Assembly (NCBI GenBank): GCA_013285465.1
Contig: CP053449.1
Span: forward strand, 1,760,735-1,824,734
Origin: Pseudomonadota bacterium
GTDB taxonomy: Bacteria; Pseudomonadota; Alphaproteobacteria; Micavibrionales; CSBR16-224
DNA length: 64,000 nt
Reading direction: 5' to 3'
Of the stretch, positions 27,329-58,424 are shown piece after piece. The notes beneath the pieces are model-generated. The model worked only from the letters and a program-made list of their open reading frames with translations. It did no database searches and was not told the origin of the DNA. The position numbers and the translations under genes are program-made. Numbering within the stretch: the first letter of the stretch is position 1; each line of letters opens with the position of its first letter.

Positions 27329-27459
27329 CTATAATTTATTGCCGCGCAGCATAAAATTGTGCTAGACTGTCCTTTAAGGCCCGAGGGGAAATGACGGCCT
27401 GACAATAGAACGGTCGGTATGTTTTAGTCATTTTGTTAAACGGCTTGAGGGATAAGGCC

Positions 27460-28104
27460 ATGACGGATATGCTTGCACAGGATAACACCCAGCAACCTCC
27501 CAACCCACAGACAGCGGAAGCATGGTGGCGCACACAAAGCGCGACAATGTCGCTGTTAAAACACGCCTATAAGAAAATCGGCGATGCCGAGGCCGAGCTG
27601 GCACGCCGTGAAGAGCGTATCCAGACGCTGGAAAAAATGGCGCTGACCGATGAAATGACAGGGCTTTATAACCGCCGCGGCTTTATGGCCGAGTTTGAAC
27701 GTGACATGAACCGTATGAAACGTCAGAACGAACAGGGCGGCTTGTTTGTTCTTTTCGATCTCAACAAATTCAAGGACATTAATGATACGCATGGCCATAT
27801 CGCCGGCGATAAATGTCTGCAACTGGTTGGACGGACATTACTGAAGCTGATCAGAAACACTGATATGGCGGCCCGTTTCGGCGGCGATGAATTCGCCCTG
27901 TTTCTATCCAGCACCACGCCGGAACACGGCGCAGATAAGGCTGTTTTTGTCCGCGAAACACTCTGTTCCCTTGTGCAGCCGTGGAAAAATACGGATATTG
28001 CCGTTAAAACCGGTATGGGCACAGCCTATTGCCCTGTCGGCACGCCTTTTGAACAGGTTTATGAAGCCGCAGATAAAGCTTTATACGCCGATAAAGGCTG
28101 CTAA
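27460..28104 (+). CDS. Stand-alone GGDEF diguanylate cyclase
   Basis: A 214-residue soluble protein making cyclic di-GMP from GTP. A short N-terminal helix likely to dimerise (ARREERIQTLEKMALTDEM, about 48-66) leads into the GGDEF domain. The A-site GGDEF is intact at 141-145 and the inhibitory I-site RNTD at 132-135 has the usual 5-residue spacing, so feedback inhibition is likely. No sensory or membrane domain is attached. The start ATG at 27460 is preceded by GAGGGATAAGG. It is closed by the terminator at 28166. Confidence 0.93.
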   Translation: MTDMLAQDNTQQPPNPQTAEAWWRTQSATMSLLKHAYKKIGDAEAELARREERIQTLEKMALTDEMTGLYNRRGFMAEFERDMNRMKRQNEQGGLFVLFDLNKFKDINDTHGHIAGDKCLQLVGRTLLKLIRNTDMAARFGGDEFALFLSSTTPEHGADKAVFVRETLCSLVQPWKNTDIAVKTGMGTAYCPVGTPFEQVYEAADKALYADKGC

Positions 28105-28203: not shown

Positions 28204-28232
28204 TTGACATATCACATAATATATTGTAATAT
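28204..28232 (+). promoter_or_regulatory. Near-consensus sigma-70 promoter of the six-gene array
   Basis: TTGACA (28204-28209), 17 bases, TAATAT (28227-28232). It sits about 85 bases before the first start codon and just after a terminator, and it is the only promoter-like element seen for the whole array. The promoter at 57613 has the same -35 plus TAT extension. Confidence 0.75.
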
Positions 28233-28316
28233 CTCCCGATTGAAAAATACATATTTACGGCGAGTCTTGCGGCGTTTCTTCTTCGCAGACATCCGCGGTT
28301 TTTAAAGGGTGGTGAT

Positions 28317-29057
28317 ATGGGTATCAAAAAAATTATTACAAAACCTGCGCTTGGTTTTCACAAATTCTGGGATGAAGGCGTCCGCGTAACCGACGGAGTC
28401 GGCCCTTTCGTACTATCCGCCATCTTTGGCGTTGTTGCAGGATTTTCTTCCGGGCCGCTGCAGGATACGCTCCGTCCCATTGAAGACGTCCCTCTCGCCG
28501 GACAAGAACAGGCGTTGCAGCAATATGATGCCGTTCTCACAACGCTGGCAGAACAACATAATATGCTGACAGGACGCACACACAGCACACAGCCGGGCGC
28601 TTTATCCGAATTGCTGGGTGAAGCAACCGCCCCTTCCGAACAAACAGCCGATATAGATAATTTGCGCACGAGCTATAACAACCAGCTGGAAAAATTCATC
28701 ACAGCCGTCGCGGTTGATGAACGTCTGAACGAAGCCGATATTCAAAATTTACTGACCCGTTTTGAAAGCGAGCACGGACAGATTAACGACGTCACAGAAT
28801 TTGCAGCGCCGGATTATGATGATATCAGCGAATCCCGCGCCCTCACCGTCAGTATTCAGGATGAAAAAGAACGCGCCACGGCGGTCTTCAATAAAAGTAA
28901 CGAGACCAATAGCAGCCTCGCGGGTGATCTCGGCAGCGGCGTCGGCGTTTTCCTCCTCCCCTGGCTTTTATATCTGGGCATCGGCGCAGGTCGCCGCCGT
29001 CTGGAAGACTGGGAAGCAGGTAAAAAAGCACCGCGAAAAAGCGGTTTTAACCATTAA
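28317..29057 (+). CDS. Two-helix membrane protein, array member 1
   Basis: A 246-residue protein of an undescribed paralogous family. Order of elements: a short basic N-terminus (MGIKKIITKP), transmembrane helix 1 (about 29-47), a helical domain of about 160 residues with AGQEQALQQYD just after the membrane and the family motif DERLNEAD at 134-141, a Tyr/Asp motif DYDDISESRA, transmembrane helix 2 (about 207-224), and a basic tail ending GFNH. By the positive-inside rule both ends are cytoplasmic and the helical domain periplasmic. First gene behind the promoter; 33 bases precede the next gene. Confidence 0.85.
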   Translation: MGIKKIITKPALGFHKFWDEGVRVTDGVGPFVLSAIFGVVAGFSSGPLQDTLRPIEDVPLAGQEQALQQYDAVLTTLAEQHNMLTGRTHSTQPGALSELLGEATAPSEQTADIDNLRTSYNNQLEKFITAVAVDERLNEADIQNLLTRFESEHGQINDVTEFAAPDYDDISESRALTVSIQDEKERATAVFNKSNETNSSLAGDLGSGVGVFLLPWLLYLGIGAGRRRLEDWEAGKKAPRKSGFNH

Positions 29058-29090
29058 TCCGGCAAGACATGCGACAAGGACTTTAAAACG

Positions 29091-29846
29091 ATGAGCATAA
29101 AACAAAAATTTGCAAAAACCCTCAAAGGCTATTCCTCAGGTTTTGGAGAGGTGGTTGGTGAAGGTCCTGAATTATTGCTGACCATGGGTATTCTCACCGG
29201 TATCCTCGGCGTCGGTATCGGTGGCTTTGGTGTCGGCGGCGTCATGGATGCCATGGACGATATTGATAATCGCCCGCAGATTGGTCAGGAAATCTCGATC
29301 CAGCAGCATCAGGCGGCACTGGCCAATCTGGCCGAACAGCGCAACGCACTCAATGAAATGGGCGGCTATACCCCCGCCGGTGTCAGCGCTTTGCAAAATC
29401 TCATCGACATTCCCGAAGATGCGCAGCAAAACCGCGCGACAATGGAACAGCAAAATCAAACATACCGTTCCCTGTTGAATGACTTTGTGACCTCCGTCCA
29501 TCTCGATACGCGCCTGAATGAAGCCGATGTCAAAAGCCTTGCCGAACAGTTTGAAGCCACACATGGGCAGATTGAAGATGTCACCTCATTTGAACATGGC
29601 ATTGATTACGCGGATATCATGGAATCACGCGCACGCACCGATGGCAGCACATACGGAACGGAGCTGAAAAAAGCACAAGCCGTCAATGATATGGCGGACG
29701 GTTTCAGCGCAAATAACTTCAGCACAGGCGGCGCATTGGGACTTTTCCTGTTTCCGTGGTTGCTTGCCATTGCGGGCGGGCTTGCCCATAAACCGCTTGA
29801 CCGCTGGTCGAAAGAACAGCCGGTAAAAAAGGGATTTAATCACTAA
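29091..29846 (+). CDS. Two-helix membrane protein, array member 2
   Basis: A 251-residue paralogue. The N-terminus MSIKQKFAKT matches members 3 and 4. Transmembrane helix 1 (about 28-51) is very glycine-rich (ILGVGIGGFGVGG). GQEISIQQHQAAL follows the membrane, DTRLNEAD is at 139-146, YADIMESRA after it, helix 2 at about 213-231 and the C-terminus KKGFNH. It is closest to member 3 in the middle domain (TSVHLDTRLNEADVKSL against TSVHVDKRLNEADAKSL). AAGGA lies about 10 bases before the ATG. Confidence 0.85.
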   Translation: MSIKQKFAKTLKGYSSGFGEVVGEGPELLLTMGILTGILGVGIGGFGVGGVMDAMDDIDNRPQIGQEISIQQHQAALANLAEQRNALNEMGGYTPAGVSALQNLIDIPEDAQQNRATMEQQNQTYRSLLNDFVTSVHLDTRLNEADVKSLAEQFEATHGQIEDVTSFEHGIDYADIMESRARTDGSTYGTELKKAQAVNDMADGFSANNFSTGGALGLFLFPWLLAIAGGLAHKPLDRWSKEQPVKKGFNH

Positions 29847-29873
29847 TATTGTATCAATTCGGGAGCCGCCCTC

Positions 29874-30629
29874 ATGGGTCTTAAAAAATCATTCGCCAAA
29901 AAAGCCAACAGCTATCAGCGCAGCATGAAAAATTACCTGAGCGAAGCAGATATTCTCTTCGTGATCCCTCCCGCCATTCTCGGCGCGGCGCTCGGTTTTG
30001 GCAGCTCCTTCGCAATTGATACCCTAAAGCCTCTTGATAACCAGCCGCATATGGGGCAGGAAATCGCCGTACAGCAACATCAGGCCGCCTTGACGCAGCT
30101 TGAGCAGCAACATAAAGCCTTGCAGGATGCACAAAGCGCCGCCCATTTTACGCCACAGTCGCTGGGAGAAATCATCCCGCTCACGGAAGAAGATCAAAGC
30201 AATAAAGGCAGTGCGATTGAAATACAAAAACAATATGAAAGCATGCTGGATGCCTTCGTCACATCGGTACATGTGGATAAACGCCTGAATGAAGCCGATG
30301 CCAAAAGCCTGATGGAAGCTTTTGAAACCACGCATGGTGACATTGAAGAAGTGACCTCTTTCAAAGCCGGACTGGATTACAACGATCTGGACGAAGCACG
30401 CGCATGGGCGGGGGAGCCTTCTGAAGGTGTCAGCGAAAAAGAACTGGCGCAAAGCATCAATAAATATGCAGACCAGACTCATGAGCAGGGCACGTCTCTG
30501 ATGATCGGCGGCGGCGCAGCGGTACTGCCGTTTCTGATCTCCATCCTGTTTGCCATGATGGGCGGCCCTTTGCGCCGCTGGGAAACGGAAACGCCAAAAC
30601 CGACAAAGCCGGGTAAATACACGCATTAA
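29874..30629 (+). CDS. Two-helix membrane protein, array member 3
   Basis: A 251-residue paralogue: N-terminus MGLKKSFAKK, helix 1 about 26-48, GQEIAVQQHQAAL, DKRLNEAD at 135-142, YNDLDEARA, helix 2 about 209-226, and a tail ending KYTH. A GGGAG ribosome-binding site lies 8 bases upstream. The post-membrane segment is nearly identical in pattern to member 2, indicating a recent duplication relative to the others. Confidence 0.85.
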   Translation: MGLKKSFAKKANSYQRSMKNYLSEADILFVIPPAILGAALGFGSSFAIDTLKPLDNQPHMGQEIAVQQHQAALTQLEQQHKALQDAQSAAHFTPQSLGEIIPLTEEDQSNKGSAIEIQKQYESMLDAFVTSVHVDKRLNEADAKSLMEAFETTHGDIEEVTSFKAGLDYNDLDEARAWAGEPSEGVSEKELAQSINKYADQTHEQGTSLMIGGGAAVLPFLISILFAMMGGPLRRWETETPKPTKPGKYTH

Positions 30630-30647
30630 CCGAAAGATTTTGAAGAG

Positions 30648-31358
30648 ATGACTATCAAACAAAATTTTGCAAAAAAAGCGCTCCGTTATGATGACGCACT
30701 GCATAACCCTTATAATGGCAAGACAGACAGGATGATCTCGCTCTTGATTGCAGGTGCATTCGGCTTGATAGGCGGCACCATTGCGACAGAAATGCAAAGC
30801 ATGGATGACAGCATCAAACCCCATGCCGAAATTGCCATGACGGAATATACGGCGGCACTTGATGCACTCTCCGCCGCAAAAGGCGACTACAAGCCCGGTA
30901 CACCGTCCCCTTTACAGGATTTGATCGGTAACAGTGAAGACGCCAACCGTCACCTACAAAACATCTCCGGTCAAAATCTGGAAACGCTTAGTAAAAAATT
31001 CGGCACCGCTTTGATCATCGATGAACGTCTGAATGAGCAGCAGGCACATGAACTTGCAGCAGCCTTCGAAAACCGCATTGGTGATTTTGAACGCTTCACA
31101 GGCTATGACCCCGATTTTTCCGATCTGGATGAGGCACGCAAGGTTGTAAAACAACACGCGACAATAGAAGCAACCGCGCTTGCGATTGATGAAAGCAGTC
31201 GCAAAGATTTACTGCGGAAAGATGTATTTTTTGGCGGCGGTGCCATCGGCATTCTGCTGGGCGCTTTTATGATGGCAGGCATTGCCACAAACCGCCGCCG
31301 GCTGGAAAGCTGGGCATCGGAAAAACCCTATAAAAAACAACCGCAATTCAAACATTAA
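30648..31358 (+). CDS. Two-helix membrane protein, array member 4
   Basis: A 236-residue paralogue, the shortest: N-terminus MTIKQNFAKK, helix 1 about 29-46 (with an Ala/Gly core), a post-membrane segment lacking the GQE motif (HAEIAMTEYTAAL), DERLNEQQ at 125-132, FSDLDEARK, helix 2 about 192-212 and a C-terminus ending QFKH. The shorter linker between the post-membrane helix and the DERLNE motif accounts for the length difference. It starts 18 bases after member 3. Confidence 0.83.
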   Translation: MTIKQNFAKKALRYDDALHNPYNGKTDRMISLLIAGAFGLIGGTIATEMQSMDDSIKPHAEIAMTEYTAALDALSAAKGDYKPGTPSPLQDLIGNSEDANRHLQNISGQNLETLSKKFGTALIIDERLNEQQAHELAAAFENRIGDFERFTGYDPDFSDLDEARKVVKQHATIEATALAIDESSRKDLLRKDVFFGGGAIGILLGAFMMAGIATNRRRLESWASEKPYKKQPQFKH

Positions 31359-31369
31359 GGTTTAAGAAT

Positions 31370-32107
31370 ATGAGTACGGAAAACAAACAGAAAAAACCGA
31401 ATATCTTCGATGACCGCACTGTCGGCGAATACTTCACTGGAGAGAATCTGTTCTTTGGTGCTTTGTTCAGCGGTGTGATCGGTGTGTTTGGCGCGCTGGG
31501 CGGTATGGCTATCGATGAAAACCTCCCCCTCAGCGATGATGAACGACCCGGACAAATGCAGGCATTGGAACAATATAATGTCATGCTGACCGATCTGACA
31601 GCACAATATAACACGCTGCGGGAATTGCAGAATGACGGCTCAGGCATGCCCGCCACACTGAAAAACTATCAGGCCGCCAATACAGACAACCCGCTCAGTG
31701 AGCAGGAAATATCGACAAAACGTGACGCTTTTAACGCACTGGCACAATCTTTTGCGGTATCCACAACTATTGATGCACGCCTCAGCGAAGATGACACCCG
31801 CGATCTGGCCGAAGCTTTCGAAAAACGCGTTGGCAACTACAAAAGCCTGACAGGCCTTGCGAAACCTGACTTCGGTGATTTAGATCATTACCGCCCCGCA
31901 TCATTAGCCGGTGTCAGTGACGAAACAAGACTGGCACAAGCAGTTGTCACAAACACGCGCAAAAACGTCGGATCTGTGACGATGGGCTATACCGGATTAG
32001 GCGGTCTTATGCTGTGGCCGCTGCTGCTGCTCGGCTTTATCGGCAAGGAATTTGTCACGGCCGAAAAAGGTCTCAATCTGCGCCGTCACTCAAAACTGCG
32101 GCACTAA
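31370..32107 (+). CDS. Two-helix membrane protein, array member 5
   Basis: A 245-residue paralogue and the most divergent in the array: a longer polar N-terminus (MSTENKQKKPNIFDD), helix 1 about 27-48, PGQMQALEQYN after it, DARLSEDD at 135-142 in place of DERLNEAD, FGDLDHYRP, helix 2 near 205-223 (LMLWPLLLLGFIG), and a basic tail ending KLRH. The spacing to member 4 is 11 bases. Despite divergence the final His is kept. Confidence 0.83.
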   Translation: MSTENKQKKPNIFDDRTVGEYFTGENLFFGALFSGVIGVFGALGGMAIDENLPLSDDERPGQMQALEQYNVMLTDLTAQYNTLRELQNDGSGMPATLKNYQAANTDNPLSEQEISTKRDAFNALAQSFAVSTTIDARLSEDDTRDLAEAFEKRVGNYKSLTGLAKPDFGDLDHYRPASLAGVSDETRLAQAVVTNTRKNVGSVTMGYTGLGGLMLWPLLLLGFIGKEFVTAEKGLNLRRHSKLRH

Positions 32108-32128
32108 TTATTAATCAAGGTGAAAAAG

Positions 32129-32923
32129 ATGGATCACGACACAGAGAGCAACGGCAAAAACCTTTTTGATAACAGGAAAATGAGTACCGGCGACAAAGTC
32201 GGTGCCTTAACTCTGATGACCGGCATTCTCAGCGGCGGGCTGTTCCTGATCGGTAGCGGCGCGGGGCTGATGATTGACGAGCTCGCCGTCCCGCCGAGCA
32301 ATGACAACCGCGCAGGGCAGGAAATCGCCTTGCAGCAATATGACCGTATGTTCAATGTTCTGGCCGAACAGCGTCAAATCCTTGACCAGAAGAATATGGA
32401 GTTCGCCTCCCTCGCCGCCATCGATCAAACGCCGGATATGTTGCAGGATGTTGTCGGATTGAGTGATGAAGAAAAAGAACTCTACGGCGATGTCACACTC
32501 GCCAAACAGGAAATCGGGCAGGCCGAAGACCAGCTGCACAATCTGGCGGAAAAATTTGCCTATAGTGCGGTTGTTGATGAACGCCTGAATGAAAGCAATG
32601 TCCGCGACTTGTTCAACCGTTTTGAAAAAGATATCGGCACAATGGAAAGCGTTGCAGGGATTGAAGCGCCCGATTACGCCGATCTGGATCAAAGCCGCGC
32701 ACGGATCGGGGCAAACGCCGATGACTATAAGGGCAACACCGCCGGCAAAGCACGCGCCATCAGCGATGACAGCAATACCATTAATGGCGATATTGCAACC
32801 GACATCGCCGGCCCACTGGGCGGCCTGCTGGGGATTGCCTTTATACTGTGGTTGGTCGGCGGGGAATATGCGGGGTCAAATTACCGCAAACGCGGGCGTA
32901 AACCGCAAAAATTCAATCACTGA
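32129..32923 (+). CDS. Two-helix membrane protein, array member 6
   Basis: A 264-residue paralogue, the longest. ATG at 32129 is chosen because AAGGTG lies 6 bases upstream; a GTG at 32120 is the alternative. N-terminus acidic/polar, helix 1 about 26-48, AGQEIALQQYD after the membrane as in member 1, an inserted acidic segment (SDEEKELYGD), DERLNESN at 150-157, YADLDQSRA, helix 2 near 225-245 and the C-terminus QKFNH. It is last in the array; no terminator is visible before the convergent small gene. Confidence 0.83.
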   Translation: MDHDTESNGKNLFDNRKMSTGDKVGALTLMTGILSGGLFLIGSGAGLMIDELAVPPSNDNRAGQEIALQQYDRMFNVLAEQRQILDQKNMEFASLAAIDQTPDMLQDVVGLSDEEKELYGDVTLAKQEIGQAEDQLHNLAEKFAYSAVVDERLNESNVRDLFNRFEKDIGTMESVAGIEAPDYADLDQSRARIGANADDYKGNTAGKARAISDDSNTINGDIATDIAGPLGGLLGIAFILWLVGGEYAGSNYRKRGRKPQKFNH

Positions 32924-57671: not shown

Positions 57672-58424
57672 ATGGCTGATCTCAGTTACCCTTTTCGTAA
57701 AGCCGCATGGTCTGCAGGGCGTGTTATCGTTCCGCACAGCCAAACAGGGGCTGTCCTGCGCCTTGGCACAATCGGCACCATCGTTGCCGCCGGTGTAATC
57801 GGCATAACGAATGTCGCACCTGACACAACACCCGTTGACGGACAGGATGCACGTATTACATCCTATGAACAACAAATTGACCAGCTTTCCGGTTTTTACG
57901 CCAATACCGTTGAAAAAACACGCGAAGCATGGCGCAGCAGCAGCATTGAGGGCAAAGAAGCAGCCCAGGTAGAGATGGATGCCGCACATGCAGAGTTCCA
58001 GAACACAGCCACGCAGGTTCTGGCGGGTATTTATACGGAAACGGGTATGTCAGAAGATGCCGCTGCCGATCTTTTGGATAAATTTGAAAACAGCATCGGC
58101 GATGTTTCCACCATTGAATTTAACGGGCAGAAATTTGCCGATATCGGTGATGCTGCTTTCCTGCGTGAAGCGCAGGCTGATTACACCTATCAGGGGGATG
58201 AGATGGATCGCGCGATGAAAATCTCGCAAAGCGCCGCAGCACAAAATGAAGGAGAGGCAAGCTTCAAATTCATGTCGCCGCTGTTCGGCCTTATGGGCGG
58301 CATGGTTTCCGTCCTGCTTATTTTGCTGGGCGAAATCACAACAAATGGCGGCATGTCGCGTCTAAGCAAACGTTTGAGCGGTCCACCGCCAAAGCCAAAA
58401 AAATCCAGCGGTTTTAATCACTAA
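57672..58424 (+). CDS. Two-helix membrane protein, distant seventh member of the 28-33 kb family
   Basis: A 250-residue protein with the array architecture: a short N-terminus, helix 1 (about 26-47), a post-membrane acidic segment with VDGQDARITSYEQQIDQL, a helical domain with MSEDAAADLLDKFENSIGD in the place of the DERLNEAD...FE...G motif, KFADIGDAAFLREAQ, helix 2 (about 203-222) and a basic tail ending SGFNH. The C-terminal KSSGFNH closely matches member 1 (RKSGFNH). AGGA lies 8 bases before the ATG. It stands alone, 25 kb from the array. Confidence 0.82.
   Translation: MADLSYPFRKAAWSAGRVIVPHSQTGAVLRLGTIGTIVAAGVIGITNVAPDTTPVDGQDARITSYEQQIDQLSGFYANTVEKTREAWRSSSIEGKEAAQVEMDAAHAEFQNTATQVLAGIYTETGMSEDAAADLLDKFENSIGDVSTIEFNGQKFADIGDAAFLREAQADYTYQGDEMDRAMKISQSAAAQNEGEASFKFMSPLFGLMGGMVSVLLILLGEITTNGGMSRLSKRLSGPPPKPKKSSGFNH

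Follow-up and report, generated by a model that had tools for sequence, protein, structure and literature searches.

A tandem array of six related genes

The plus strand of the window (the whole stretch of 64 000 nucleotides that was analysed) carries six adjacent open reading frames at 28317–32923, each coding for 236–267 amino acids. The genes are m1 (28317–29057, 246 aa, C-terminus ...KSGFNH), m2 (29091–29846, 251 aa, ...KKGFNH), m3 (29874–30629, 251 aa, ...PGKYTH), m4 (30648–31358, 236 aa, ...QPQFKH), m5 (31370–32107, 245 aa, ...HSKLRH) and m6 (32120–32923, 267 aa when read from a GTG, ...PQKFNH). The likely start of m6 is an ATG at 32129, giving 264 aa, which has a better ribosome site than the GTG. 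The first gene is preceded by a near-consensus promoter, TTGACA-17-TAATAT (10/12), at 28204–28232 on the plus strand, and the one strong promoter attributed to the unit in a preliminary description of this DNA is therefore present. A single-domain GGDEF (diguanylate cyclase) gene, 27433–28104, lies on the same strand immediately 5′ of the unit.

Every pair among the six proteins was homologous by BLASTP (E from 1e-11 to 1e-53, 27–39% identity), thus the resemblance is not a matter of chance and the six are true paralogues, as had been described. The residues invariant in m1–m6 are D134, R136, L137, E139, L145, F149, E150, G154 and, at the C-terminus, H246. These positions bear out the motif D[EAKT]RL[NS]E....L...FE...G in all six; the LNE/LSE element (with N/S variable), the FE...G turn and the terminal His are common to all. 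The GQE..LQQ element reported in several members is found in m1, m2, m3 and m6 and is degenerate in m4 and m5, whilst the M.IK..FAK N-terminus assigned to members 1–4 holds for m2–m4 and is only partial in m1.

Comparison of m1–m6 with their orthologues in a congener gave dN of 0.07–0.24 and dS of 0.63–1.17, a dN/dS of ∼0.08–0.20, showing that the six genes are under purifying selection. In the sister species G003, the m1 orthologue is 81.6% identical (dN/dS ∼0.13) and the m2 orthologue 86.9% identical. A contig search with one of the proteins had as its sole match the congener MAG M3014.

Predicted topology and structure

The plan proposed in the preliminary description, a first transmembrane helix (TM1), about 150 periplasmic residues, a second helix (TM2) and a basic tail, is supported by hydropathy in all six proteins, with TM1 near residues 22–47, TM2 near 194–247, an acidic middle and a basic tail. 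Most family members have a short basic N-terminus and an N-terminal TM, and lack a signal peptide. Where both TMs were called, the net charge is +2 to +10 for the tail and −10 to −29 for the middle, which by the positive-inside rule places the tail in the cytoplasm. The members are thus predicted to be inner-membrane proteins with both ends cytoplasmic, a variable acidic helical periplasmic domain and a flexible basic tail.

An AlphaFold2 model of m3 (136 sequences) was all helical, with a mean pLDDT of 83. Confidence exceeded 90 over most of residues 51–200, corresponding to the periplasmic domain, and the TM helices were less certain. The possibility that these are outer-membrane beta-barrels was rejected on this all-helical model (pLDDT 83).

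Searches for known relatives

Searches of m1–m6 against Pfam, NCBIfam and PHROGs gave no shared family, and when 136 members were compared with Pfam and NCBIfam each weak match was limited to a single member. The chemoreceptor ligand domain TarH (PF02203) reached at best 18.6 bits (E 0.0018), against a gathering cut-off of 25.2, and was matched at E<0.01 by 1 of the 136 members; membership of this Pfam family was rejected because the best score fell under the cut-off. A sequence search of the PDB returned no relative. Fold searches against the PDB and viral models gave generic helical-bundle similarity only (STAT coiled-coil, syntaxin); the best PDB match was the STAT2 coiled-coil domain at Z 8.1, in a range that is uninformative for helical models, and no four-helix-bundle chemoreceptor ligand domain stood out. 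Such resemblance of a predicted model to STAT or syntaxin is no evidence of kinship. No description of this family was found in the literature. As far as these searches reach, the predicted two-helix membrane family is undescribed, which agrees with the earlier assessment: there is no shared Pfam or NCBIfam match, no PDB sequence relative and no confident fold match.

Family size, genomic setting and distribution

Seven genomes of one bacterial family were compared: that of the window (G000; 2.67 Mb, one contig) and G001–G006. G000 forms the genus g1 with the sister species G003 and G004, G005 and G006 belong to another genus, and G002 to a third. In G000, a profile of the six members gave 22 matches and one of 29 members gave 36, one of which was weak (E 0.07) and was the C-terminal end of an unrelated 610-aa protein in the locus L094. 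The genome has 35 complete family ORFs, arranged as 21 mono-family units with 1, 2, 3, 4 or 6 genes each. A seventh member in the window, at 57672–58424 on the plus strand, stands alone; it codes for 250 aa with the C-terminus ...SSGFNH and has its own promoter, TTGACA-17-TATATT. This gene, ∼28 further members in the genome and the invariance of the terminal His go beyond what the preliminary description had observed.

Since the six-gene unit is one of 21 units of various sizes, nothing sets the number six apart, and the earlier suggestion of a hetero-oligomer of the six finds no support in its stated form, the family having ∼35 members; a common complex of members is possible. Around the units lie genes that we take, by eye from their translations, to be polA, sucC, tyrS, lon, sucA/B and rplQ. 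A common neighbour gene was sought around the G000 units and none was found.

The promoter element TTGACATA lies upstream of 12/21 family units, compared with 27/740 other lead genes (Fisher p ∼1e-11), and this sharing hints at possible co-regulation. The element is also present at a soluble protein family (described below) and at some lineage-specific genes with basic C-termini. One minus-strand gene with a TTGACATA promoter, L170 4629–5144 (G000:C1:90629–91144), codes for a 171-aa two-TM protein with a basic tail ending RRRKPQKPVRGL. Its match to the family is marginal (E 0.014) and is gone with a tail-less profile; the protein may be a decayed relative without the His.

Among the relatives, in which fragmented MAGs make the membership counts lower bounds, matches numbered at least 19 in each of G003, G004 and G005, the search having scored no more than 19 candidates in any one genome, and 13 in G006. 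G002 gave 5 search matches and 7 in fetched loci, and G001 gave 1 and 5, respectively. Another family of the same order has single, distant copies. In the remainder of the alphaproteobacterial sample (384 genomes besides G000) no members were found, and weak matches across the phylum covered mainly TM1 and the first helix and looked generic. Judged by these searches, the proteins have undergone an expansion in the bacterial family of the window's genome.

The last residue is fixed within genomes and differs between them

All 35 of the G000 members end in His, compared with 34/1605 (2.1%) of the remaining ORFs (100 aa or longer) in 1.83 Mb of this genome (Fisher p ∼3e-53). Entropy in the G000 members is zero at position −1 and 2.6–3.0 bits at positions −2 to −8. 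In the same 1.83 Mb, no multi-copy protein cluster fixed for His was found beyond the membrane family and the soluble family. Only 1/18 unrelated G000 proteins with a TM and a basic tail (1.03 Mb sample) ends in His, thus a basic tail alone does not dictate this residue. The terminal His is likewise fixed in the sister species (22/22 in G003, 19/19 in G004). The G005 members are instead all aromatic-ending (29/29; 15 Tyr, 11 Trp and 3 Phe), compared with 12/98 other ORFs of that genome, and in G002 the last residue is Asn in 7/7. The G006 members (n = 12) comprise 9 ending in His with 2 Cys and 1 Asn as exceptions, and the G001 ends are mixed (3 Leu, 1 Asn and 1 Val).

When the final 12 residues were left out of the profile, it recovered the same members with the same last residues, which excludes a profile artefact as the cause of the fixed end. 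The G000 terminal His is encoded by CAT in 21 members and CAC in 14, the stops include both TAA and TGA, and no DNA motif was found 3′ of the stop. With both codons, varied stops and nothing conserved after them, the constraint is on the protein and not on the DNA, and an attC-like site or a terminator was rejected as the explanation.

Two further observations concern chain ends. In the G005 family genes (L129–L143, L164–L168), the stop can be foretold from the final codon: TGG is followed by TAG in 10/11 cases and TAT by TAA in 13/13. Elsewhere in G000, three tandem paralogues of ∼580 aa on the plus strand (L207 1241–7137; G000:C1:2511241–2517137) all end in W, the first with the glycine-rich tail GGGGGGGW.

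A maximum-likelihood tree of the family was built without the tails. The G000 members fall in 33 separate places on it, and the aromatic-ending G005 members in 13 separate places among His-ending ones, at least 9 of which are imposed by branches with strong support. The tree requires 13 changes between His and aromatic ends. By this reconstruction, the paralogues are older than the species splits. The end residue, fixed within a genome across ancient paralogues but different between species, therefore switched jointly in lineages that were by then distinct. Within G005, W, Y and F swap between close relatives. The seven G002 members lie in a few clusters, so their Asn may be partly inherited.

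The last residue might instead have no role, having been inherited through recent duplication or homogenized by gene conversion. The tandem arrays of six, four and three genes would suit this, as would neighbours that share tails (KIIKW/KIIKW in G005). It is nonetheless very unlikely, because the paralogues predate the species splits (33 places for G000, 13 for G005), their identity is only ∼15–39% and their tails vary in the residues before the last one. The use of different codons and stops without common 3′ DNA also argues against it, as does the occurrence of the same code in an unrelated family.

A soluble family with the same terminal residue

That family is represented in G000 by five tandem genes on the minus strand at G000:C1:1285859–1288073 (L189 15859–18073), coding for undescribed proteins of 133–152 aa. 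Their neighbours are presumably flagellar, flgD and fliK, as judged by eye. The proteins have no TM or signal peptide and share a conserved tail, NNVRRVQ.RL...NP..H. An AlphaFold2 model (pLDDT 88) has a mixed alpha/beta fold whose last segment is floppy, and a fold search gave no confident match. The soluble family, with its different predicted fold, is unrelated to the membrane family. The tail is at low confidence in the AlphaFold2 models of both families, as expected of a flexible docking peptide.

The soluble proteins end in His in G000 (5/5), in G003 (3/3 complete) and in G004 (5/5); in the other genus they end GIIKH in G006 (2/2) and GIIKY in G005 (1/1). The code thus extends beyond the membrane family, although this agreement rests on few independent events, with one aromatic-ending sequence (G005). 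Because these proteins are soluble, the tagged end is very probably cytosolic.

L094 was considered as a third tagged family. Its protein (L094 3084–4916, G000:C1:423083–424915, minus strand) is a secreted-looking chain of 610 aa with a C-terminal TM and the tail RYRRKNPKPKPH. It is His-ending (PKPKPH) in all three g1 species; the G002 relative ends ...KKLDW, and the candidate was dropped as its G002 and G005 relatives break the code.

Two explanations that treat the tail as an export or processing signal can be weighed against these data. In the first, the tail would be a CTERM-type signal (motif, TM and basic cluster) cut by a dedicated sortase. A TM followed by a C-terminal basic cluster in many proteins per genome fits such a signal, and the relation of many substrates to one enzyme would be that of GlyGly-CTERM and rhombosortase (PMC3237569). 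However, exosortase (PF09721) was found in 0/7 genomes, no motif is conserved before TM2, the N-terminus of the proteins bears a TM but no signal peptide, and a soluble family without a TM has the same last residue, so that CTERM-type processing is highly improbable. In the second, the basic tail and its fixed end would form a secretion signal, and the proteins a dispersed repertoire of type IV-like effectors. Many diverged paralogues lying singly among housekeeping genes, their basic C-terminal tails and the same tag on a soluble family could all be taken in this sense. We give the secretion explanation equally little credence, since no VirB4 over the TIGR00929 cut-off was found in the seven genomes and they therefore have no canonical type IV system.

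A proposed docking tag for a common partner

A partner shared by all members is supported by these observations, and the invariant C-terminal residue is the strongest clue to it. A side chain that is fixed over dozens of proteins, changes jointly and sits on a flexible tail is what would be expected were one protein to bind the free C-terminus in a pocket, and the ease with which Trp, Tyr and Phe replace one another in G005 is consistent with a pocket for the side chain. We therefore lean, with some reserve, towards the explanation that the C-terminus, cytoplasmic and flexible, serves as a docking tag and that one partner, common to the paralogues and co-evolving with them, reads it. The free C-terminal residue would dock in the pocket of one trans-acting reader, which we infer, and a shift in the specificity of that pocket would have required every tagged protein to follow. 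More tentatively, the tag may be a one-residue C-terminal address, with a single receptor whose clients are dozens of membrane proteins together with at least one soluble family. Its specificity would have been switched between related species, with the clients following. The absence of any partner gene consistently adjoining the members, the exceptions in G006, the mixed ends in G001, the small and clustered set of G002 members, the lone aromatic-ending soluble sequence and the L094 relatives that break the code count against a docking tag.

Most likely, the reader would bring the tagged proteins together at one site or in one complex, by sorting, anchoring or assembly, and their diverged periplasmic domains may serve varied sensing or binding functions. 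Our best guess is sorting or anchoring, given that the clients are proteins of the membrane whose periplasmic domains have diverged and that most units have their own strong promoter.

The main alternative, which outranks the others, is that the last residue sets turnover, acting as a degron or anti-degron towards a protease of the cytosol or the membrane (ClpXP- or FtsH-like). Protease tags are often C-terminal and may consist of basic residues and one end residue, as in the ClpX C-motifs. A degron would suit both families. His and Asn are, however, unusual degron ends, and if a universal protease had changed its specificity from one genus to a related one, many other proteins would be affected, which makes a role in turnover unlikely.

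If a docking tag is the correct explanation, it would be a new bacterial protein-addressing code together with an example of such a code being rewritten. Around 35 genes of a 2.67 Mb genome are given to one undescribed family, and the swap of tag specificity in many paralogues at once is a natural experiment. Because concerted change points to a single recognizing partner, the receptor could be hunted by pull-down or by cross-genome correlation, and the sufficiency of the single terminal residue is directly testable.

Comparison with known systems

The layout of a TM, periplasmic helices and a second TM resembles that of chemoreceptors with TarH (PF02203) ligand domains, but the present family has no HAMP or signalling domain.

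In the GlyGly-CTERM/rhombosortase and PEP-CTERM/exosortase systems, many proteins carry a short C-terminal signal, a TM and a basic cluster, that is handled by one partner (PMC3237569). The present family likewise has many proteins per genome with a TM and a basic C-terminal cluster. CTERM proteins, however, have a signal peptide, no other TM and a motif before the TM, whereas these proteins have two TMs and no such motif; their conserved feature is the very last residue, which depends on the species, and exosortase is absent.

The C-terminal insertion signal of outer-membrane beta-barrels is read by BAM; the motifs of Neisseriales and Helicobacter are shifted, and differences between most organisms are reported to be diffuse (PMC3582582). 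The likeness lies in the use of extreme C-terminal residues and of a common machine, the reader here being inferred. In contrast to barrels read by BAM, the present proteins are all-helical with two TMs and predicted cytoplasmic tails, and their code extends to a soluble protein and fixes one residue per species.
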